Below, one piece after another: positions 3,484 to 35,093 of a DNA stretch of 35,093 nucleotides. The DNA lies in contig DF820466.1 of the NCBI GenBank assembly GCA_000739535.1, positions 243,050-278,142 of the forward strand, written 5' to 3'. This DNA comes from Candidatus Vecturithrix granuli (lineage in GTDB: Bacteria > Moduliflexota > Moduliflexia > Moduliflexales > Moduliflexaceae). Numbering within the stretch: the stretch's first letter is position 1; the number at the start of each line of letters is the position of its first letter. The translations under genes were made by a program, and so were the position numbers. Under the pieces are notes generated by a model. The model saw only the letters and a program-made list of their open reading frames with translations, made no database searches and had not been told where the DNA came from.

Positions 3484-5033
3484 GTCTGTGCAGCTCCCGC
3501 CATCATTAAACCTATAGTCTCCCGATCCGCTTTTTCAGCAGGAACAATCCCGACAATTCTGCCCTGATACATGACCGCAATCCGATCGCTCAGGGCAAAA
3601 ATTTCATCAAGCTCGGTTGAAATTAACAGAATAGCAACTCCGCGCTCCCTTTCGGCGAGCAGTTGGCGATGGATGAATTCGGTTGAGCCAATATCCACGC
3701 CGCGCGTCGGTTGAATCGCCAATAAGACAGTGGGGTTCCGATCTAACTCACGCCCGACCACAAATTTTTGCTGATTTCCTCCTGATAATTCATGAATAAT
3801 CACATTGGTATCTTTGGCCCTGACATCATAGGTCATGAGTAAATTTTGGGTATAGTGGTGTGTCGGTTTTTTCTGCAACAACGCATGCTTCGAGAAGGGG
3901 GGACGAAAGAAAGAACCGAGCATGGCGTTTTCCTGCAAAGACAAATTCATGACAATGCCCATATCCTGACGTTTTTCAGGGATATGAGACACTCCAGCCT
4001 TTGTCAAACATCGCGGCGGCCAGGCGGCGATCTCCTGTCCGTGCAAGAAAATTTTGCCGCTGGTAGGCGGACACAAACCGGCTAAAATTTCGGCCAGTTC
4101 CGATTGTCCATTCCCCGAAACCCCGGCAATCCCCAGAATTTCTCCGCTATGAAGCGAAAAGGAGACGTTCTGCACCAGGGGTACCTGCTTTTCAGGCACA
4201 TAATAGAGCTGTTCGACGCGCAAGACTTCAGGTCCCTGAACTTGCCGCTTTTTCTCTAAACGTTCCAATATGCCTCGTCCCACCATCTGATACGCTAATT
4301 CGCGCTGCGTGGTTGCGGCGGCATTCACTGTCTGGACCACGCGGCCTCCGCGCAAGACTGTGGCGCGGTCGCTGGATTCAAGCACTTCATGGAGCTTATG
4401 GGTAATGAAAATCACCGACATGCCCTGTTGCACCAGGGTTCGTAAAATTTTGAAAAAATCCTGGGTTTCCTGGGGGGTTAAGACCGATGTTGGCTCGTCA
4501 AGAATCAGGAGTTCCGCCTTGCGGTATAAGGCTTTGATGATTTCCACACGCTGACGTTCGCCAACCGCTAAATGTTCAACTTTGGCCCTGGGACTCACGG
4601 TCAGACCGAATTGATCTGACAAATCCCGGATTTTTTGTTCGGCTCTTCTCAGATCAAGTATATTCTGAGTGAGACGCTGCCAATAAGCATGGAAGCCATG
4701 AGAAGGCCCGTGATCTTGCGGAGCTTTCATGCCCAGAATAATATTTTCCGTGACCGTAAGCGAAGGGATGAGCATGAAATGTTGGTGCACCATCCCGATG
4801 CCGCAGGCAATGGCATCCCTGGGAGAATGAAACTGCACCGACGCGCCTTTCCAGAAGATGTCGCCCTCATCCGGGTGATACAGGCCGTACAGGATATTCA
4901 TCAACGTGGTTTTGCCAGCCCCATTTTCACCGACAATGGCATGAATTTCCCCTTGCTTCACGTCGAGCGTAATATGATCATTGGCCAGAATACCGGGAAA
5001 GCGTTTTGTAATATTCTTCAGTTGCAGCAGCAT
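3480..5033 (-). CDS. Nucleoside ABC transporter ATP-binding protein (YufO/NupO type)
   Basis: Cytoplasmic ATPase of 517 residues with two fused nucleotide-binding domains. Domain 1 has Walker A GENGAGKTT (about residue 36), the signature-like LAVGERQRVEI, Walker B LLILDEPTSVL and switch histidine in FITHKL. Domain 2 has the degenerate GVSGNGQSEL P-loop, a full LSGGNQQK signature and VLLAIQPTRGVD in place of a canonical Walker B. This one-good-one-degenerate layout is typical of the sugar/nucleoside CUT2-BMP ATPases. The AIQPTRG block, with alanine-isoleucine-glutamine instead of DEP, is a hallmark of the nucleoside branch. It is the first gene of the transporter and overlaps the following permease by 4 bp. 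No BMP lipoprotein gene is adjacent. Confidence 0.9.
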   Translation of the reverse strand: MLLQLKNITKRFPGILANDHITLDVKQGEIHAIVGENGAGKTTLMNILYGLYHPDEGDIFWKGASVQFHSPRDAIACGIGMVHQHFMLIPSLTVTENIILGMKAPQDHGPSHGFHAYWQRLTQNILDLRRAEQKIRDLSDQFGLTVSPRAKVEHLAVGERQRVEIIKALYRKAELLILDEPTSVLTPQETQDFFKILRTLVQQGMSVIFITHKLHEVLESSDRATVLRGGRVVQTVNAAATTQRELAYQMVGRGILERLEKKRQVQGPEVLRVEQLYYVPEKQVPLVQNVSFSLHSGEILGIAGVSGNGQSELAEILAGLCPPTSGKIFLHGQEIAAWPPRCLTKAGVSHIPEKRQDMGIVMNLSLQENAMLGSFFRPPFSKHALLQKKPTHHYTQNLLMTYDVRAKDTNVIIHELSGGNQQKFVVGRELDRNPTVLLAIQPTRGVDIGSTEFIHRQLLAERERGVAILLISTELDEIFALSDRIAVMYQGRIVGIVPAEKADRETIGLMMAGAAQT

Positions 5034-17580: not shown

Positions 17581-17652
17581 ACATATTCATCCTTCTGACC
17601 TGGACAGCAACAAAAGGCTTGACAAAATTCTGTCTGGCCTTTTACAATTTTT

Positions 17653-17832
17653 GATAGTGGTGAAATGGGAAGTGATGACTCATTGCCAGGGGTGGTCAGG
17701 AGTGACGCGGTCGTCGCAACGGCATCTCTGATGCCGCGCCTGTCAGGGCATTGACCTGACGCGATGACCTCATCGCACTCCTGTGCCCTGGACACTGTTC
17801 CGATATTCATCACTTCCCATTTCACCACTACC
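17653..17832. repeat. Palindromic MITE-like element, tandem copy 1
   Basis: The arms at 17655-17677 and 17808-17830 (TAGTGGTGAAATGGGAAGTGATG, split here into TAGTGGTGAAAT and GGGAAGTGATG) are perfect inverted repeats of 23 bp. The 130-bp centre holds nested palindromes built from GTCAGGAGTG / CACTCCTG, CGACGAGGTCG-like and CAACGGCATC / GATGCCG blocks. There is no open frame for a transposase, so it would have to move in trans. Copy 2 begins 7 bases later in the same orientation. Confidence 0.8.
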
Positions 17833-17839
17833 GAAATTG

Positions 17840-18024
17840 GGTAGTGGTGAAATAGCAAGTGATGACTCATGCGTCACGATGTGGTCAGGAGTGCGACGAG
17901 GTCGTCGCAACGGCATCAGCGATGCCGCACCTGTCAGGGCGTTGCCCTGAGGCGATGACCTCATCGCCCTCCTGTCTGTTGAGCAGTGTTCCGGGTACCC
18001 ATCACTTACCATTTAACCACTACC
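17840..18024. repeat. Palindromic MITE-like element, tandem copy 2
   Basis: GGTAGTGGTGAAATAGCAAG starting at 17840 is matched by the complement ending at 18024, with three mismatches over 25 bases. The centre is clearly homologous to copy 1. GAAATTG occurs just left (17833-17839) and just right (18026-18032), which may be a 7-bp target duplication or an extension of the arms. The right end abuts the broken nuclease gene. Confidence 0.8.
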
Positions 18025-20363: not shown

Positions 20364-22706
20364 ATGAAACTATTCTCTCACTGGTCTATTGCGACAAAGT
20401 TGATTTTGATAAACCTGATGGTTTTCCTGATTATTGGGGGAGGCATGTTTGTGGTGTTTTTTTCATTTAGCAATATTGAACGTATGATGACAAGAATTGT
20501 AAAGCAAGATGTGTATCAGGTTATCGAAAATGCACGGATAGGAAGAGAACTCACAGGGGTATTTGCAGATACTTCTCATCTGCTCGATCGCTTCCTTGAA
20601 CAGGAAGACTTGTTGAAGAACGAAGGGGATCGTCTTGTGAAAACAACAAATGCTCTGGACACCCAGCGCACAAATGTGCGTTTACAAGAAGCTCTCCAGG
20701 AATTTACCCGGCAACTTCAGGCTCTGCTCGAACAAGGGACGATTATCAGTAAGGTGTCACAGGAATTGAATACCATAGATCAGGAGCTTACTCTGAAGCT
20801 CAAAGACCTGGAAAGTCTGATTGCAAACACGATCATCGTTGTGAGAATGGAAAGCAGAGATACTTCCAGCCTGGAAAGACTGAGTCTGAATGTCCCCTGG
20901 TATCGTGAGGCCCTTTTACGAGTAAATATCTCTCTTTACCGAGTCATCCAAAAACATCTTCGGATTGCTTCAAAGGAGGAAGAGGCCGGCAAAAGTATCC
21001 TGCAATTACTGGTATTACTGGATGAACTTGATGCAAAACTCCAATCATTGACAAGTTCTGAGCCAAATGTGAAGGAGTTTGGGCAACAGTTTATTGATAC
21101 TGTGCGAAGTTATAAAGAAACCATTGCTGCTTTCTATAAGGAGCTAACAGCATTTCAACAACAGCTTGATGCGATGAACAATGCTCAACGAGCGGTGTTG
21201 ACGGTATTAGAGGAAATAGATGCGCAGATCGTGGAAACAACAGGATATATCCAGGAAAATGCGACTGGAGTCATGCAATCCGCCAGAAGGCTCATCATCA
21301 TATTATCAGGAGTGATCATGGTTGCGACAGTTTTCGGATGGTTAGGGATACGCTGGATGGTTAAACCGCTGTTGCATCTCTCTCGGGTCGCCGATCAACT
21401 GGCAGATGGTGATATAGAGTGTCATATTGCCGACGCCAGAGCGCGCGATGAGATTGGGACATTGTCGCGAGCATTTAGAAGGTTAATCCTGTATTTTCAA
21501 GAGATGGCCCAAACTGTTATCGAGATTTCGCAGGGAAATTTGGAGTTGGAGGTAATGGCCAAATCAAAGCAAGATGTGTTGCGAAATGGTTTTCAGCAAA
21601 TGATTCTCTACCTTAAAGAAATGGGCAAATTCGCTACCCATGCGGCGCGGGGAGATCTCCGCCATCAGATTGTCTTACGTTCTCAAACCGACCAATTAGG
21701 AAATGCCTTTGTCCACATGAGGGAGGGACTGATCGCGTTGATTGCTGAAATTCGCTCAGGAGCAGACTATATTGCTTCGATCAGCTCACAAGTGCTGAGT
21801 ACCTCTTTAAAGAATACGGAAATATTGGAACAAATCGCGCATACTGCCGAAGTCACGTCTTCAGCCATGCAGGAAGTCAGTGCGAGTGCTGGAGAGGTTC
21901 GGATGACGACAGAAGACTTAACGTCATCTGTTGAAGAGACCAGCGCTTCCATCAATCAGATGCTCGCTTCCATCACACACGTCGCTGAAAATTCCAGGAA
22001 ACTTTCAGGATTCGCTGCCGATACTAGTGTAACGATGACTGCTATGGTCAATTCATTCGAAAAAATTGCTGACCAGGCCGAACATTCGAAAACCCTTGCC
22101 GAAACAACCACGCAGGATGTTGTCTTCGGACAAAAGTCCATGATGCAAATGATGATCCGGATGACCGCGATTTCAGAGGTGACAGAGGGCATTTCACAGA
22201 TCATTTCGCAGTTGGAGAACCGCTCACGCGAAATCGGTACCATTCTTGACGTCATTAACGAAGTTGCCGACCAGACGTCTCTGCTCGCATTGAATGCTTC
22301 CATTATCGCTGCCCAGGCTGGGGTCCACGGACGAGGTTTTGCGGTTGTGGCGAATGAAATTAAAGAACTCGCTACTCGCGTCGCGACTTCTACGAAAAAA
22401 ATCGCAGAGATTATCAAAAGCGTTCAGGGTGATTCAGCGGATGCTGCGAAGGCCATTGGGCAGGGGCAGCGCGAAGTCAAAAATGGGGTTATGATTGCCC
22501 GGCAAGCCGAGAAAGCCTTACAGAAAATCGAACAAAGTACGAAAAATTCTGCCGGTGTTGCGGCTGAAATTGCTATTTTAGTTCGCCAGCAAACTACCGC
22601 CAGTACTCAGGTTGCTGAATCGATCCATGATGTCGCAAATATGGTCAGCGAAATTACGCGAGCGACTCAGGAACAAGAAAAGAAGGTAGTGGTATCCTGT
22701 ACATGA
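20364..22706 (+). CDS. Methyl-accepting chemotaxis protein, 3' end cut by a repeat element
   Basis: Inner-membrane chemoreceptor of 780 residues. The first span is at about 10-35, a helical periplasmic sensor with coiled-coil character follows to about 300, the second span is at 306-330, HAMP runs to about 385 with a second HAMP-like stretch, and the signalling domain comes last. The hairpin tip (NEVADQTSLLALNASIIAAQ, then AGVHGRGFAVVANEI, about 631-665) is the non-canonical NASIIAAQAG type. The helix after the tip runs only to ITRATQEQEK, where the 115-bp element supplies KVVVSCT and a stop. The returning helix therefore looks shorter than the outgoing one. I chose ATG 20364 because the first membrane span starts shortly after it; TTG 20322 also fits. 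Likely non-functional or altered. Confidence 0.8.
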   Translation: MKLFSHWSIATKLILINLMVFLIIGGGMFVVFFSFSNIERMMTRIVKQDVYQVIENARIGRELTGVFADTSHLLDRFLEQEDLLKNEGDRLVKTTNALDTQRTNVRLQEALQEFTRQLQALLEQGTIISKVSQELNTIDQELTLKLKDLESLIANTIIVVRMESRDTSSLERLSLNVPWYREALLRVNISLYRVIQKHLRIASKEEEAGKSILQLLVLLDELDAKLQSLTSSEPNVKEFGQQFIDTVRSYKETIAAFYKELTAFQQQLDAMNNAQRAVLTVLEEIDAQIVETTGYIQENATGVMQSARRLIIILSGVIMVATVFGWLGIRWMVKPLLHLSRVADQLADGDIECHIADARARDEIGTLSRAFRRLILYFQEMAQTVIEISQGNLELEVMAKSKQDVLRNGFQQMILYLKEMGKFATHAARGDLRHQIVLRSQTDQLGNAFVHMREGLIALIAEIRSGADYIASISSQVLSTSLKNTEILEQIAHTAEVTSSAMQEVSASAGEVRMTTEDLTSSVEETSASINQMLASITHVAENSRKLSGFAADTSVTMTAMVNSFEKIADQAEHSKTLAETTTQDVVFGQKSMMQMMIRMTAISEVTEGISQIISQLENRSREIGTILDVINEVADQTSLLALNASIIAAQAGVHGRGFAVVANEIKELATRVATSTKKIAEIIKSVQGDSADAAKAIGQGQREVKNGVMIARQAEKALQKIEQSTKNSAGVAAEIAILVRQQTTASTQVAESIHDVANMVSEITRATQEQEKKVVVSCT

Positions 22707-22799
22707 TGCACGTTCCCTGAGCGAAGTCGAAGGGAACGCCTGCGTGCTCGTCTCGACTCCGCTCGGCGACCGGTCATCATGTACAAGGTAGCCACTACC
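22685..22799. mobile_element. GGTAGTGG-ended inverted-repeat element (MITE-like), complete copy
   Basis: A 115-bp element. GGTAGTGGTATCCTGTACATG at the left pairs with CATGTACAAGGTAGCCACTACC at the right with small gaps. Inside, TTCCCTGAGCGAAGTCGAAGGGAA forms a further palindrome, next to the CTCGACTCCGCTCGGCGACCGG motif. The right 66 bases recur at window position 1. The flanks (AAAAGAA left, GATTAAA right) show no target duplication, as expected if recombination joined two different copies or if the join is an assembly artefact. Confidence 0.75.
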
Positions 22800-22800
22800 G

Positions 22801-23091
22801 ATTAAATTTATCACCAGCAAAGATATCGAACTGAAGTGGTTTATAGATAATCGCGTGACCTCCTCCCGCAAGGATGTCAGCGGAGTGGCGCCAGAGATCC
22901 TGAATGACAAATTTGCCAGCGTTTTGGCCTCGCAACTCCCTTACGGCAAGGTAGAACCTCAAATCCCACAATGGCCTGAAATCATGGATGTTTTCACCAC
23001 ATCGCTCCAGGAAGCGATTGTCGGAATGAAGACGCCTGAAGACGCCCTGGCTGAAGCTCACGAAAGAATCAATGCCATTCTGGCACGATAA
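22801..23091 (+). pseudogene. 3' remnant of a CUT1 sugar-binding protein gene
   Basis: Immediately after the element the frame opens as IKFITSKDIELKWFIDNRVT, SSRKDVSG and continues to QIPQWPEIMDVFTTSLQEAI and EDALAEAHERINAIL. This is the last 97 residues or so of an extracellular solute-binding protein of the maltose/glycerol-3-phosphate type, where WKFIKFIT, RxxxPSR-like and the final AAEEALAEAQERIN blocks are usual. Roughly the first three quarters, including the signal peptide, is missing. Two CUT1 permeases follow, so the ABC system has lost its binding protein here. Confidence 0.8.
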
Positions 23092-23187
23092 CATGTCACG
23101 CTAAACCTGCAAATTGGCTACTGGTAAAGGGGAGCAGGCGGCTCCCCTTGTTATAAGGCAGGACCGTTCAATTTTCCGTATTTTCAT

Positions 23188-23241
23188 CATCTCGACTCCG
23201 CTCGATGACCGGAACACCGCACGTCGAGCGAAGTTGAGACG
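23188..23241. repeat. CTCGACTCCGCTCG hairpin repeat
   Basis: CATCTCGACTCCGCTCGATG (23188-23207) pairs imperfectly with CGTCGAGCGAAGTTGAGACG (23222-23241). The TCTCGACTCCGCTCG-x-x-GACCGG string also occurs at 19-40 and inside the 22685-22799 element, so this is a third, smaller relative. It lies in the leader between the binding-protein remnant and the first permease. Confidence 0.7.
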
Positions 23242-23302
23242 CTATTTCTGGCAAGAATTGAACAGCCTTGGCTATAAGGATAGTTCATCCAGAGACTTCA
23301 GC

Positions 23303-24160
23303 ATGAAAATAAAAGACCGTTACATGTGGATTCCTTTCGTGCTTCCGGGGGTTTTGTTGTTGGTGTTGGTGCTGGGTTTTCCTGCTGTCACAAGCATTTT
23401 ATACAGCTTCGAACCTGAAGGTGATCGCGGCAGCTATACCCTTGCCAACTACATCAATCTGCTGCAAGATCCCTTTTTTAAAACAACCTTCTGGAATACA
23501 GGGGTGTTCGTATTTTTCAGCGTCGCCAGCCATCTGGTTCTCGGATTGGCGGTTGCTCTGGTCTTAAACACGGCCCTGCCTGCCAAGCCGCTGTTTCGTA
23601 TTATTGCCTTGCTTCCCTGGGTGGTTCCCGATGTAGTGGCCGGGATTATCTGGAAGTGGATGTACAATCCCCTTTACGGCGCGATCAATGATCTCCTTCT
23701 GAGAACCGGCCTTATTCATAACCCGGTCGAATGGCTGACAAAACCGCAATTGGCTTTGTTTAGCGTAATCCTTGTGAATCTCTGGCGCGGATTTCCTTTT
23801 GTCATGCTGATTCTGTTGGCAGGGCTGCAATCCATTCCCAACTACCTGTATGAGGCTGCCGCCATTGACGGAGCCTCGGCGCGGCAGAGCTTTTTTCACA
23901 TCACCATCCCGGGTTTGCGGAAAATGCTCGTGGTGGCCTTAGCCCTGGATACCGTGTGGGAGGTGCGGCGATTCGGTCTGATCCAGGCCATGACGCAGGG
24001 TGGCCCCGGGGTATTGACCGAGGTGCTCTCTACCTATACGTACAAACAATATTTTAAATTTTTTCGATTTGAGTATGCCTCGGCGATCTCTGTCGTGATG
24101 ACGCTTGTGCTGTTATTGGTGAGTCTCCCGTATATCTGGATGATCAGTCAGGAAGAATGA
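23303..24160 (+). CDS. CUT1 sugar ABC transporter permease (UgpA/MalF-like)
   Basis: Inner-membrane permease of about 285 residues with six predicted spans (BPD_transp_1). The ATPase-contact EAA loop is clear: YEAAAIDGASARQSFFHITI followed by PGL (about residue 195). The start ATG at 23303 (MKIKDRYMWIPFVLPG) gives a normal family N-terminus; the frame is open further upstream only through repeat DNA. It overlaps the next permease by 4 bp (ATGA). No ATPase gene is adjacent, which is common because CUT1 permeases often share one MsmK/UgpC ATPase. Confidence 0.87.
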   Translation: MKIKDRYMWIPFVLPGVLLLVLVLGFPAVTSILYSFEPEGDRGSYTLANYINLLQDPFFKTTFWNTGVFVFFSVASHLVLGLAVALVLNTALPAKPLFRIIALLPWVVPDVVAGIIWKWMYNPLYGAINDLLLRTGLIHNPVEWLTKPQLALFSVILVNLWRGFPFVMLILLAGLQSIPNYLYEAAAIDGASARQSFFHITIPGLRKMLVVALALDTVWEVRRFGLIQAMTQGGPGVLTEVLSTYTYKQYFKFFRFEYASAISVVMTLVLLLVSLPYIWMISQEE

Positions 24161-24984
24161 AAAAGGTATTTTGGAAAATTAGCGTATGGGGTTTCCTGCT
24201 CGTGGTCTGTTTTTATTGCCTGCTGCCCTTTGCCTGGATGTTTTCCACCTCGCTCAAAACCGAAACAGAGGCGTTCCGGATTCCCCCGACCTGGATTCCC
24301 CTTCAACCGACGATAGATAGCTATATCGGGATTTGGGTCAGAAAAAATTTCGGCGTCTATTTTTTCAATAGCACCGCCATCTCGCTGGCCACCGCTTTGC
24401 TTTCGACCTTTGTGGGCGGAATGGCCGGCTATGGGTTTTCCCGCTTTGTTTTCAAAGGCCGGCGTTTTCTGATCGGGTTCTTTTTAGCCACGCAAATGCT
24501 GCCCGGAGTATTGCTGGTTGGCCCCTATTTCAAAGTGCTCACCAAAATTGGTCTCTATGATACCCGCACCGGTCTGATTATCGCATTTCTGACTATTTGC
24601 TTGCCTTTCTCGACCTGGATGATGAAAGGGTTTATTGATAAGGTTCCGGTCGAACTTGATCAGTCGGCCATGATTGATGGGTGTTCCAGAATAGGAGTGT
24701 TTTTTAAAATTCTCGCGCCGGTCATTGCCCCTGGAATGGTCGCCACGATTCTTTTTGCGTTTCTGCTGGCTTGGGGCGATCTGCTCTGGGCGTTGTGTTT
24801 GACCACCAGTGAATCCATGATCACTGTGACCCTGGGTATTGCCAGAACCGTAGGAGAGTTCCGCATCATCTGGCCGATGCTCATGGCAGGTTCCCTGGTT
24901 GGAGGGATGCCGGCCATTATTCTCTACATCTTTTTACAGCGGCTTCTGGTGCAGGGGTTGACCGCCGGGGCTGTTAAGGAGTGA
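24157..24984 (+). CDS. CUT1 sugar ABC transporter permease (UgpE/MalG-like)
   Basis: Inner-membrane permease of 275 residues with six predicted spans. Family marks are the N-terminal LLPFAWMFSTSLKTETEAF, and the EAA loop in the form LDQSAMIDGCSRIGVFFKIL followed by APVIAPG. The first EAA alanine is replaced (QSA for EAA), a tolerated change in this branch. Its ATG overlaps the stop of the partner permease. Together they form the channel for a sugar or polyol that cannot be named because the binding protein is truncated. Confidence 0.87.
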   Translation: MKKVFWKISVWGFLLVVCFYCLLPFAWMFSTSLKTETEAFRIPPTWIPLQPTIDSYIGIWVRKNFGVYFFNSTAISLATALLSTFVGGMAGYGFSRFVFKGRRFLIGFFLATQMLPGVLLVGPYFKVLTKIGLYDTRTGLIIAFLTICLPFSTWMMKGFIDKVPVELDQSAMIDGCSRIGVFFKILAPVIAPGMVATILFAFLLAWGDLLWALCLTTSESMITVTLGIARTVGEFRIIWPMLMAGSLVGGMPAIILYIFLQRLLVQGLTAGAVKE

Positions 24985-24999
24985 AAAAGGAGCGTTGTG

Positions 25000-25749
25000 A
25001 TGGAATTTGAAGGTCAAGTCATCCTGGTGACAGGTGCAGGCAGAGGGATTGGAAAAGCTATTGCCTCAGCGTTTGCGCGGGAAAAAGCGCGCGTCGTTCT
25101 GAACGATCTCTGCTCGCAAGATGAATTAGACAAGGTTGCGGCTGAACTTTCCGAGTTTGAAGGACAATGTATGGCCATCCGGGCTGATGTGAGCCGCTCT
25201 GACCAGGTCAGAGAGATGATCGCCCGCATTGAGCGGACGTTTCAGCGACTCGATATTCTGGTGAATAACGCCGGAATCATCCGCCGGGGCACGATCGAGA
25301 CCGTAACTGAGGAGGAATGGGATCTGGTGTTGCAAGTCAATCTAAAAGGCACGTTTAATTGCTGCAAGGCGGTCGTTGACATCATGAAACGCCAGCAAAG
25401 AGGCAAGATGATCAATGTATCCTCGGTGGCCGGGAAAATAGGAGATATTACCTCGGCTCCGGGGTATGGGTCGTCAAAAGCCGCAATTGACGCCCTGACT
25501 AAAACCTTAGCGCGGCAATTAGCTCAATATAATATCAACGTCAACGCCGTGGCGCCCCATGCCATTGCCACCGAAATGAGCGCGCAATGGTCAGAGAAAA
25601 AACGCCAGGCCATCATCGCCGCGATTCCGCTGCAGCGACTCGGAACACCTGAAGATGTGGCCGCCGCAGTTCTCTTTCTGGCCTCAGAAAAGGCCAATTT
25701 CATTACCGGCGAAATCCTGGATGTCAACGGTGGGTTTGTGATGGATTAG
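25000..25749 (+). CDS. SDR family oxidoreductase (FabG-like)
   Basis: Classical NAD(P)-dependent short-chain dehydrogenase of about 249 residues. The motifs are TGAGRGIG at the cofactor site, NNAG (about residue 88), the VSSVAG serine, YGSSK catalytic Tyr/Lys and a C-terminal ILDVNGGFVMD. AAAAAGGAG lies about 8 bases before ATG 25000; GTG 24997 is an alternative. It follows the CUT1 permease by 15 bases, so it is in that operon and probably oxidises or reduces the imported sugar or polyol rather than acting in fatty acid synthesis. That role is inferred from context. Confidence 0.85.
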   Translation: MEFEGQVILVTGAGRGIGKAIASAFAREKARVVLNDLCSQDELDKVAAELSEFEGQCMAIRADVSRSDQVREMIARIERTFQRLDILVNNAGIIRRGTIETVTEEEWDLVLQVNLKGTFNCCKAVVDIMKRQQRGKMINVSSVAGKIGDITSAPGYGSSKAAIDALTKTLARQLAQYNINVNAVAPHAIATEMSAQWSEKKRQAIIAAIPLQRLGTPEDVAAAVLFLASEKANFITGEILDVNGGFVMD

Positions 25750-35008: not shown

Positions 35009-35083
35009 CACACGAAATCGTGATGAAGCCGAATGGGACCGGCAGCGGGACCCTGCCCGGACTCCAGAGGCGGTGATGGGCAA

Positions 35084-35093
35084 GGGGGGGGGG
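35084..35093. other. Terminal G homopolymer, probable sequencing artefact
   Basis: The window ends in ten consecutive G residues after an abrupt GC-rich stretch. Poly-G at read or contig ends is a known artefact of two-colour Illumina chemistry. Bases from about 35040 onward should be treated with caution. Confidence 0.6.

Follow-up and report, generated by a model that had tools for sequence, protein, structure and literature searches.

Bacterial IS-derived MITEs such as MITEAba12 are short and non-coding, carry terminal inverted repeats and occur in many near-identical copies with target duplications, having no transposase of their own (PMC6382973). IS1 itself is known for replicative deletions (Turlan and Chandler 1995, as cited in PMC9330008); such adjacent deletions run from the exact element end, keep the element and leave no duplication. 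In the Lenski lines, all deletion-linked IS150 events (14/14) lacked a duplication, while all ordinary IS insertions (69/69) had one (PMC11708052). The locus described here, at which a 115-bp element joins a truncated chemoreceptor gene to a truncated sugar-binding protein gene, can be set beside each of these systems. The element has all the MITE properties listed above, and differs from MITEAba12-type MITEs in that its ends match those of IS1-family elements of the same genome, its host belongs to KSB3 (Modulibacteria) and nearly its whole 115 bp forms an imperfect hairpin. With IS1 and its adjacent deletions it shares the GGTAGTGG ends, which in this genome also stand beside InsA/InsB genes, and a loss of DNA from the exact element end that spares the element and makes no duplication; unlike IS1, the junction element codes for nothing, so that a transposase would have to act in trans. 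As in the IS-associated deletions of evolving E. coli (PMC11708052), an intact element stands between unpaired flanks, although history was tracked through time there and is inferred from one assembly here. No direct precedent for an IS1 MITE, or for MITE-mediated deletion in bacteria, emerged from literature searches. We read the junction, with a probability of roughly 0.52, as a scar left when about 1.5 kb was lost locally by IS1-type adjacent deletion at one element copy.

Candidatus Vecturithrix granuli is a little-known sludge bacterium, and KSB3 (Modulibacteria) is an uncultured phylum. The genome holding the window (the whole stretch of DNA analysed, 35,093 nucleotides) comprises 21 contigs and 8,384,694 bases. 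It is listed as UASB270, 'Candidatus Vecturithrix granuli', phylum KSB3, in Table 1 of PMC4312070, and is a short-read metagenome assembly with 38-fold average coverage, built from MiSeq reads with SPAdes 2.5.0 at k=67 and scaffolded by SSPACE with mate pairs (PMC4312070). An Rfam search of the window gave 0 matches. Away from the junction, the window holds a 99-bp direct repeat (17704-17802 and 17895-17993; 84% identity, 191 bp apart) and, around it, an inverted 30-bp pair (17649-17678 / 17807-17836), as well as a terminal G run beside a single N at 35083-35093, which is probably a contig-end artefact. The junction and the other copy of the element in the window are made up as follows:

1 to 66, + strand: partial copy of the 115-bp element (right-hand 66 bp), directly after a run of N; an assembly gap cuts the copy.
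20364 to 22706, + strand: chemoreceptor (MCP) gene, truncated at its 3' end; Pfam HAMP (E=1e-12) and MCPsignal (E=6e-34), aligned with three paralogues.
22677 to 22684, + strand: left flank GAAAAGAA, receptor coding sequence, without a duplicate on the right.
22685 to 22799, + strand: 115-bp MITE with GGTAGTGG termini and imperfect long inverted repeats, as judged from copy number and fold; without target-site duplication.
22800 to 22807, + strand: right flank GATTAAAT, binding-protein coding sequence, without a duplicate on the left.
22801 to 23091, + strand: remnant of a carbohydrate ABC-transporter solute-binding protein gene, the last 96 of about 430 codons plus stop.

This is the arrangement that the sequence-only reading had proposed, and its details held. 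The receptor frame opens with the ATG at 20364, is native to 22684 and then takes six codons (V-V-V-S-C-T) from the element before the TGA at 22704-22706; alignment with the paralogue at C16:108833-111550 showed that about 104 residues are absent from the receptor C-terminus. The binding-protein frame opens two bases past the element with only the last quarter of the gene, has no start codon at its head and is closed upstream by an in-frame TAG in the element. Its 96 codons correspond to residues 335-430 of an intact 430-aa paralogue on contig C19 (77% identity), and they are 90-92% identical to intact relatives in Desulfobacterales and other bacteria, which lie in operons of other phyla. Both flanks are native coding sequence right up to the element, the receptor ending at 22684 and the binding protein beginning at 22800, and ATT-AAA-TTT-ATC at the right flank carries on the frame of the intact relatives (LMKFITSKDIELKWF in one of them, L024). 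The flanks GAAAAGAA and GATTAAAT are identical at 4/8 positions, which is chance level: when flanks were taken from different element copies, at least 4/8 matched in 44% of the pairings and 7-8/8 in 1.2%. The claim that no target duplication surrounds the element was thus confirmed, and a decayed duplication was ruled out, since the flanks are at chance level and most other copies stand between perfect duplications.

The element, GGTAGTGG...CCACTACC, has no coding capacity, and as a single strand it folds into one long imperfect hairpin (-66.7 kcal/mol, z -8.1; no shuffled sequence was as stable). About 45 copies are present genome-wide. A whole-genome census of element ends counted 42 on the left. 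On the right it gave 44 matches, one of which was the left end of a copy in reverse; this leaves 43 distinct right ends, 2 of them on longer IS1-like copies. The full-length copies (n=33) show 0-3 differences from the consensus and are 97-100% identical, and the junction copy has a single mismatch, a private variant at position 82. At 26 ungapped copies, 7-8 of the 8 flanking bases match on both sides, and these duplicated flanks have an A+T content of 77%; compared with the 1.2% reached by mismatched pairing, this indicates that insertion makes an 8-bp A+T-rich duplication, which the junction copy does not have. Other ungapped copies without a clear duplication lie at C14:242449-242563, C20:522109-522223 and C19:58522-58636, and the duplication is shifted or imperfect at C17:323375 and C20:533949. 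Short, non-coding, with terminal inverted repeats, dispersed near-identical copies and target-site duplications, the element is a MITE. The genomes of three relatives from the same family and order yielded no copy. A second, related subfamily with ...GGGAACAGTGAGCGGCTCGTTTCGACTTCGCTCAACGAG... was seen on C19 (L033, around 4531-4612) and at C20:856278-856336 (L116), with one of its copies just upstream of the C19 receptor.

The ends of the element point to the IS1 family. Its right end GGTAGTGGCTACCTTGTACATGATG shares 24 of 25 bases with GGTAGTGGCTACCTTGTAAATGATG, an end at C18:560610 that adjoins a gap and the start of an InsA-like frame (MITTITQDHCRTCGSTNLVKNGHY); by eye this start resembles the InsA on C14, and the 24-aa peptide, which is short, gave no Pfam match. 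The IS1-family element on C14 (PF03400, E=1e-39; InsA domains PF03811 and PF12759) starts with GGTAGTGG and has the matching inverted end GGTAATGG, its first 8 bases being common with the element. No intact autonomous IS1 with exactly the element's ends was found in the assembly, where each of the C18 copies lies beside a gap and is cut short at one end. On sequence grounds, the description that fits the element best is that of a MITE with IS1-type ends, and from those ends we infer that an IS1 transposase may be able to act on it. A transposase gene of the IS1 family that contains an in-frame TAG also lies beside a large gap at C14:393839-394222 (L124).

The sequence-only reading had taken the joined genes for two unrelated ones, each missing the part that faces the other. 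They are indeed unrelated in sequence and both parts are missing, but the genes were probably neighbours and the parts probably formed one contiguous lost segment. In this genome the binding protein has a single close paralogue (C19:142129-143421; 77% identity over the remnant, against 30% for the next best). It is located 151 bp downstream of a receptor, and the first 326 residues of that receptor show 50% identity to the window receptor; two C21 receptors of the same family directly follow periplasmic binding-protein genes; because of these arrangements, the receptor and the binding protein were probably once adjacent at the window locus too. Judged from the paralogues, the lost stretch would comprise approximately 0.3 kb of receptor sequence, a spacer of 0.15 kb and 1.0 kb of the binding-protein gene, about 1.5 kb altogether. 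As a separate observation, the window-receptor family tends to adjoin binding-protein genes (C21:1061492-1064468, L143; C21:468215-471731, L144; C19:139775-143421, L033) of varying types (SBP_bac_1, ABC_sub_bind and Peripla_BP_6), as if the two worked in pairs.

The sequence-only reading had suggested looking in related genomes for the full receptor 3' end and the full binding-protein gene. An intact binding protein occurs in other phyla, but no related receptor lies upstream of it within the DNA compared, and no orthologous undeleted locus was found among the relatives compared. When a full-length relative was used as query, the whole assembly gave matches to the C19 paralogue, the window remnant and distant proteins only, so that the missing N-terminal part has no other copy there. 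The reciprocal junction is also absent, as among all element ends enumerated GATTAAAT does not precede any on the left and GAAAAGAA does not follow any on the right. Together, these two results argue against an inversion or a join of unrelated loci. Inversion, which had been offered as an alternative to deletion, and exchange between copies were rejected for want of the reciprocal ends; a join of two unrelated loci is unlikely, given the same order of receptor and then binding protein on C19 and the lack of orphaned partner ends.

The proposal that a small non-autonomous element marks a deletion junction is supported, and the most parsimonious route is adjacent deletion beside one IS1-type element, because it needs one insertion where recombination or collapse need two, 1.5 kb apart. 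The ancestral locus would have read receptor, binding protein, permease, permease, and a MITE with IS1-family ends would have inserted at one side of the segment that was later lost. An IS1-type transposase, acting in trans, would then have joined one element end to a target about 1.5 kb off on the same molecule, taking out the receptor tail, the spacer between the genes and all of the binding-protein gene but its last quarter; one intact element without a matching duplication would have stayed behind. At the junction, the deletion starts exactly at the element end, the element is kept and the flanks (4/8) form no duplication. Consistently, the duplication-less copy at C14:242449-242563 (L111) splits an AAA-ATPase_like gene, and about 400 bp between the two halves are gone in comparison with intact paralogues (L132 and L133); this second copy on a small within-gene deletion supports adjacent deletion.

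Recombination between two copies, the route first suggested for the junction, is possible but not needed, since adjacent deletion by one copy gives the same structure. Two copies with the same orientation, inserted about 1.5 kb from each other in the receptor and the binding protein respectively, could have looped out the intervening DNA and left a hybrid copy; this would produce exactly the observed structure, with unpaired 8-mers on both sides, and the 97-100% identity of the copies is homology enough for RecA. However, homologous recombination of this kind needs two independent insertions, and with about 46 copies in 8.38 Mb only some 0.19 direct pairs within 1.5 kb are expected genome-wide; no ungapped direct pair surviving within about 1.5 kb was seen once a false join on C19 was discounted. 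At the C14 copy it would take two insertions within 0.4 kb of one gene, and the junction copy shows no visible mosaic, only its one private variant (position 82). We consider it unlikely. Still less would we expect a double-strand break that was repaired with loss of the 1.5 kb and capture of the element. Such a capture would account for the junction in one event without duplication, and de novo IS insertions that lack a duplication and accompany deletions have been reported (PMC11708052), but they are rare relative to adjacent deletion in that study and nothing at this locus speaks for one specifically, which makes this explanation very improbable.

The caveat of a misassembly at a collapsed repeat proved well founded in general. 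An artefact could have arisen here through the collapse of two genuine copies about 1.5 kb from each other, or through a merger, in scaffolding, of contig ends that lie in the repeat; the deletion would then be a feature of the assembly alone. The element is longer than the k of this short-read assembly (67), runs of N cut many of its copies, and the window starts after such a run with 66 bp of element, exactly k-1, which identifies the element as a repeat that breaks the UASB270 assembly in many places. Moreover, a false ungapped join through another copy can be demonstrated at C19:58522-58636. There, a 1.15-kb contig stands between two element copies (C19:57282-58636) whose outer flanks GATAATAA and GATAATGA are one duplication, and a rare variant at position 88 is common to both element pieces. 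This contig (L099, C19:57369-58521), which carries a TPR-like gene, is identical over 55 bases at its far end to the edge of the gap C19:610635-611908 (L122), and its near flank GATCTTTACTG recurs directly after the element end at C19:610567. The contig is misplaced into an element copy and belongs in that gap. Nevertheless, the C19 false join left orphaned partner ends visible, while the window junction has none, and joining unrelated loci would hardly reproduce the C19 order of receptor and then binding protein, so a misjoin of that type is improbable. A collapse would still require a direct pair of copies separated by 1.5 kb, and at 26 ungapped copies the assembly has the paired duplications right. 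The form of error that is possible is one in which two nearby copies collapsed and the 1.5-kb piece between them was lost from the bin; taken as a whole, we find an assembly artefact doubtful as the origin of the junction.

Under adjacent deletion, our preferred reading, the loss would have struck the head of a transporter operon whose remaining genes follow the remnant:

23303 to 24160, + strand: ABC transporter permease 1, intact; PF00528, 81% identity to L024 and L026.
24157 to 24984, + strand: ABC transporter permease 2, intact; PF00528, 86-90% identity to L024, L025 and L026.
24997 to 25749, + strand: short-chain dehydrogenase, intact; it also follows the permeases in L024, L025, L029 and L032.

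The intact relatives of the binding protein (90-92%) are followed by the same two permeases and often by the same dehydrogenase. In the window, between the remnant and the first permease, 23151-23280 contains a palindromic stretch with the core CTCGACTCCGCTCGATGACCGG / CGTCGAGCGAAGTTGAGACG (fold -48.7 kcal/mol). The outcome is that the operon has intact permeases and an intact dehydrogenase but a broken binding protein, and that the receptor is without its tail. That the MITE repeatedly drives small adjacent deletions in this KSB3 genome, having here detached the binding protein from a transporter that may now rely on the C19 binding protein, is an extrapolation to which we attach little probability.

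For short-read genomes, the target duplications around a MITE offer a practical test, since they distinguish true insertions from both deletions and false joins. Applied here, the test revealed that a contig had been misplaced in a published assembly. The element represents an apparently undescribed family of IS1-type MITEs in an uncultured phylum, and the junction adds a clean deletion scar beside a transporter operon to a known kind of event.
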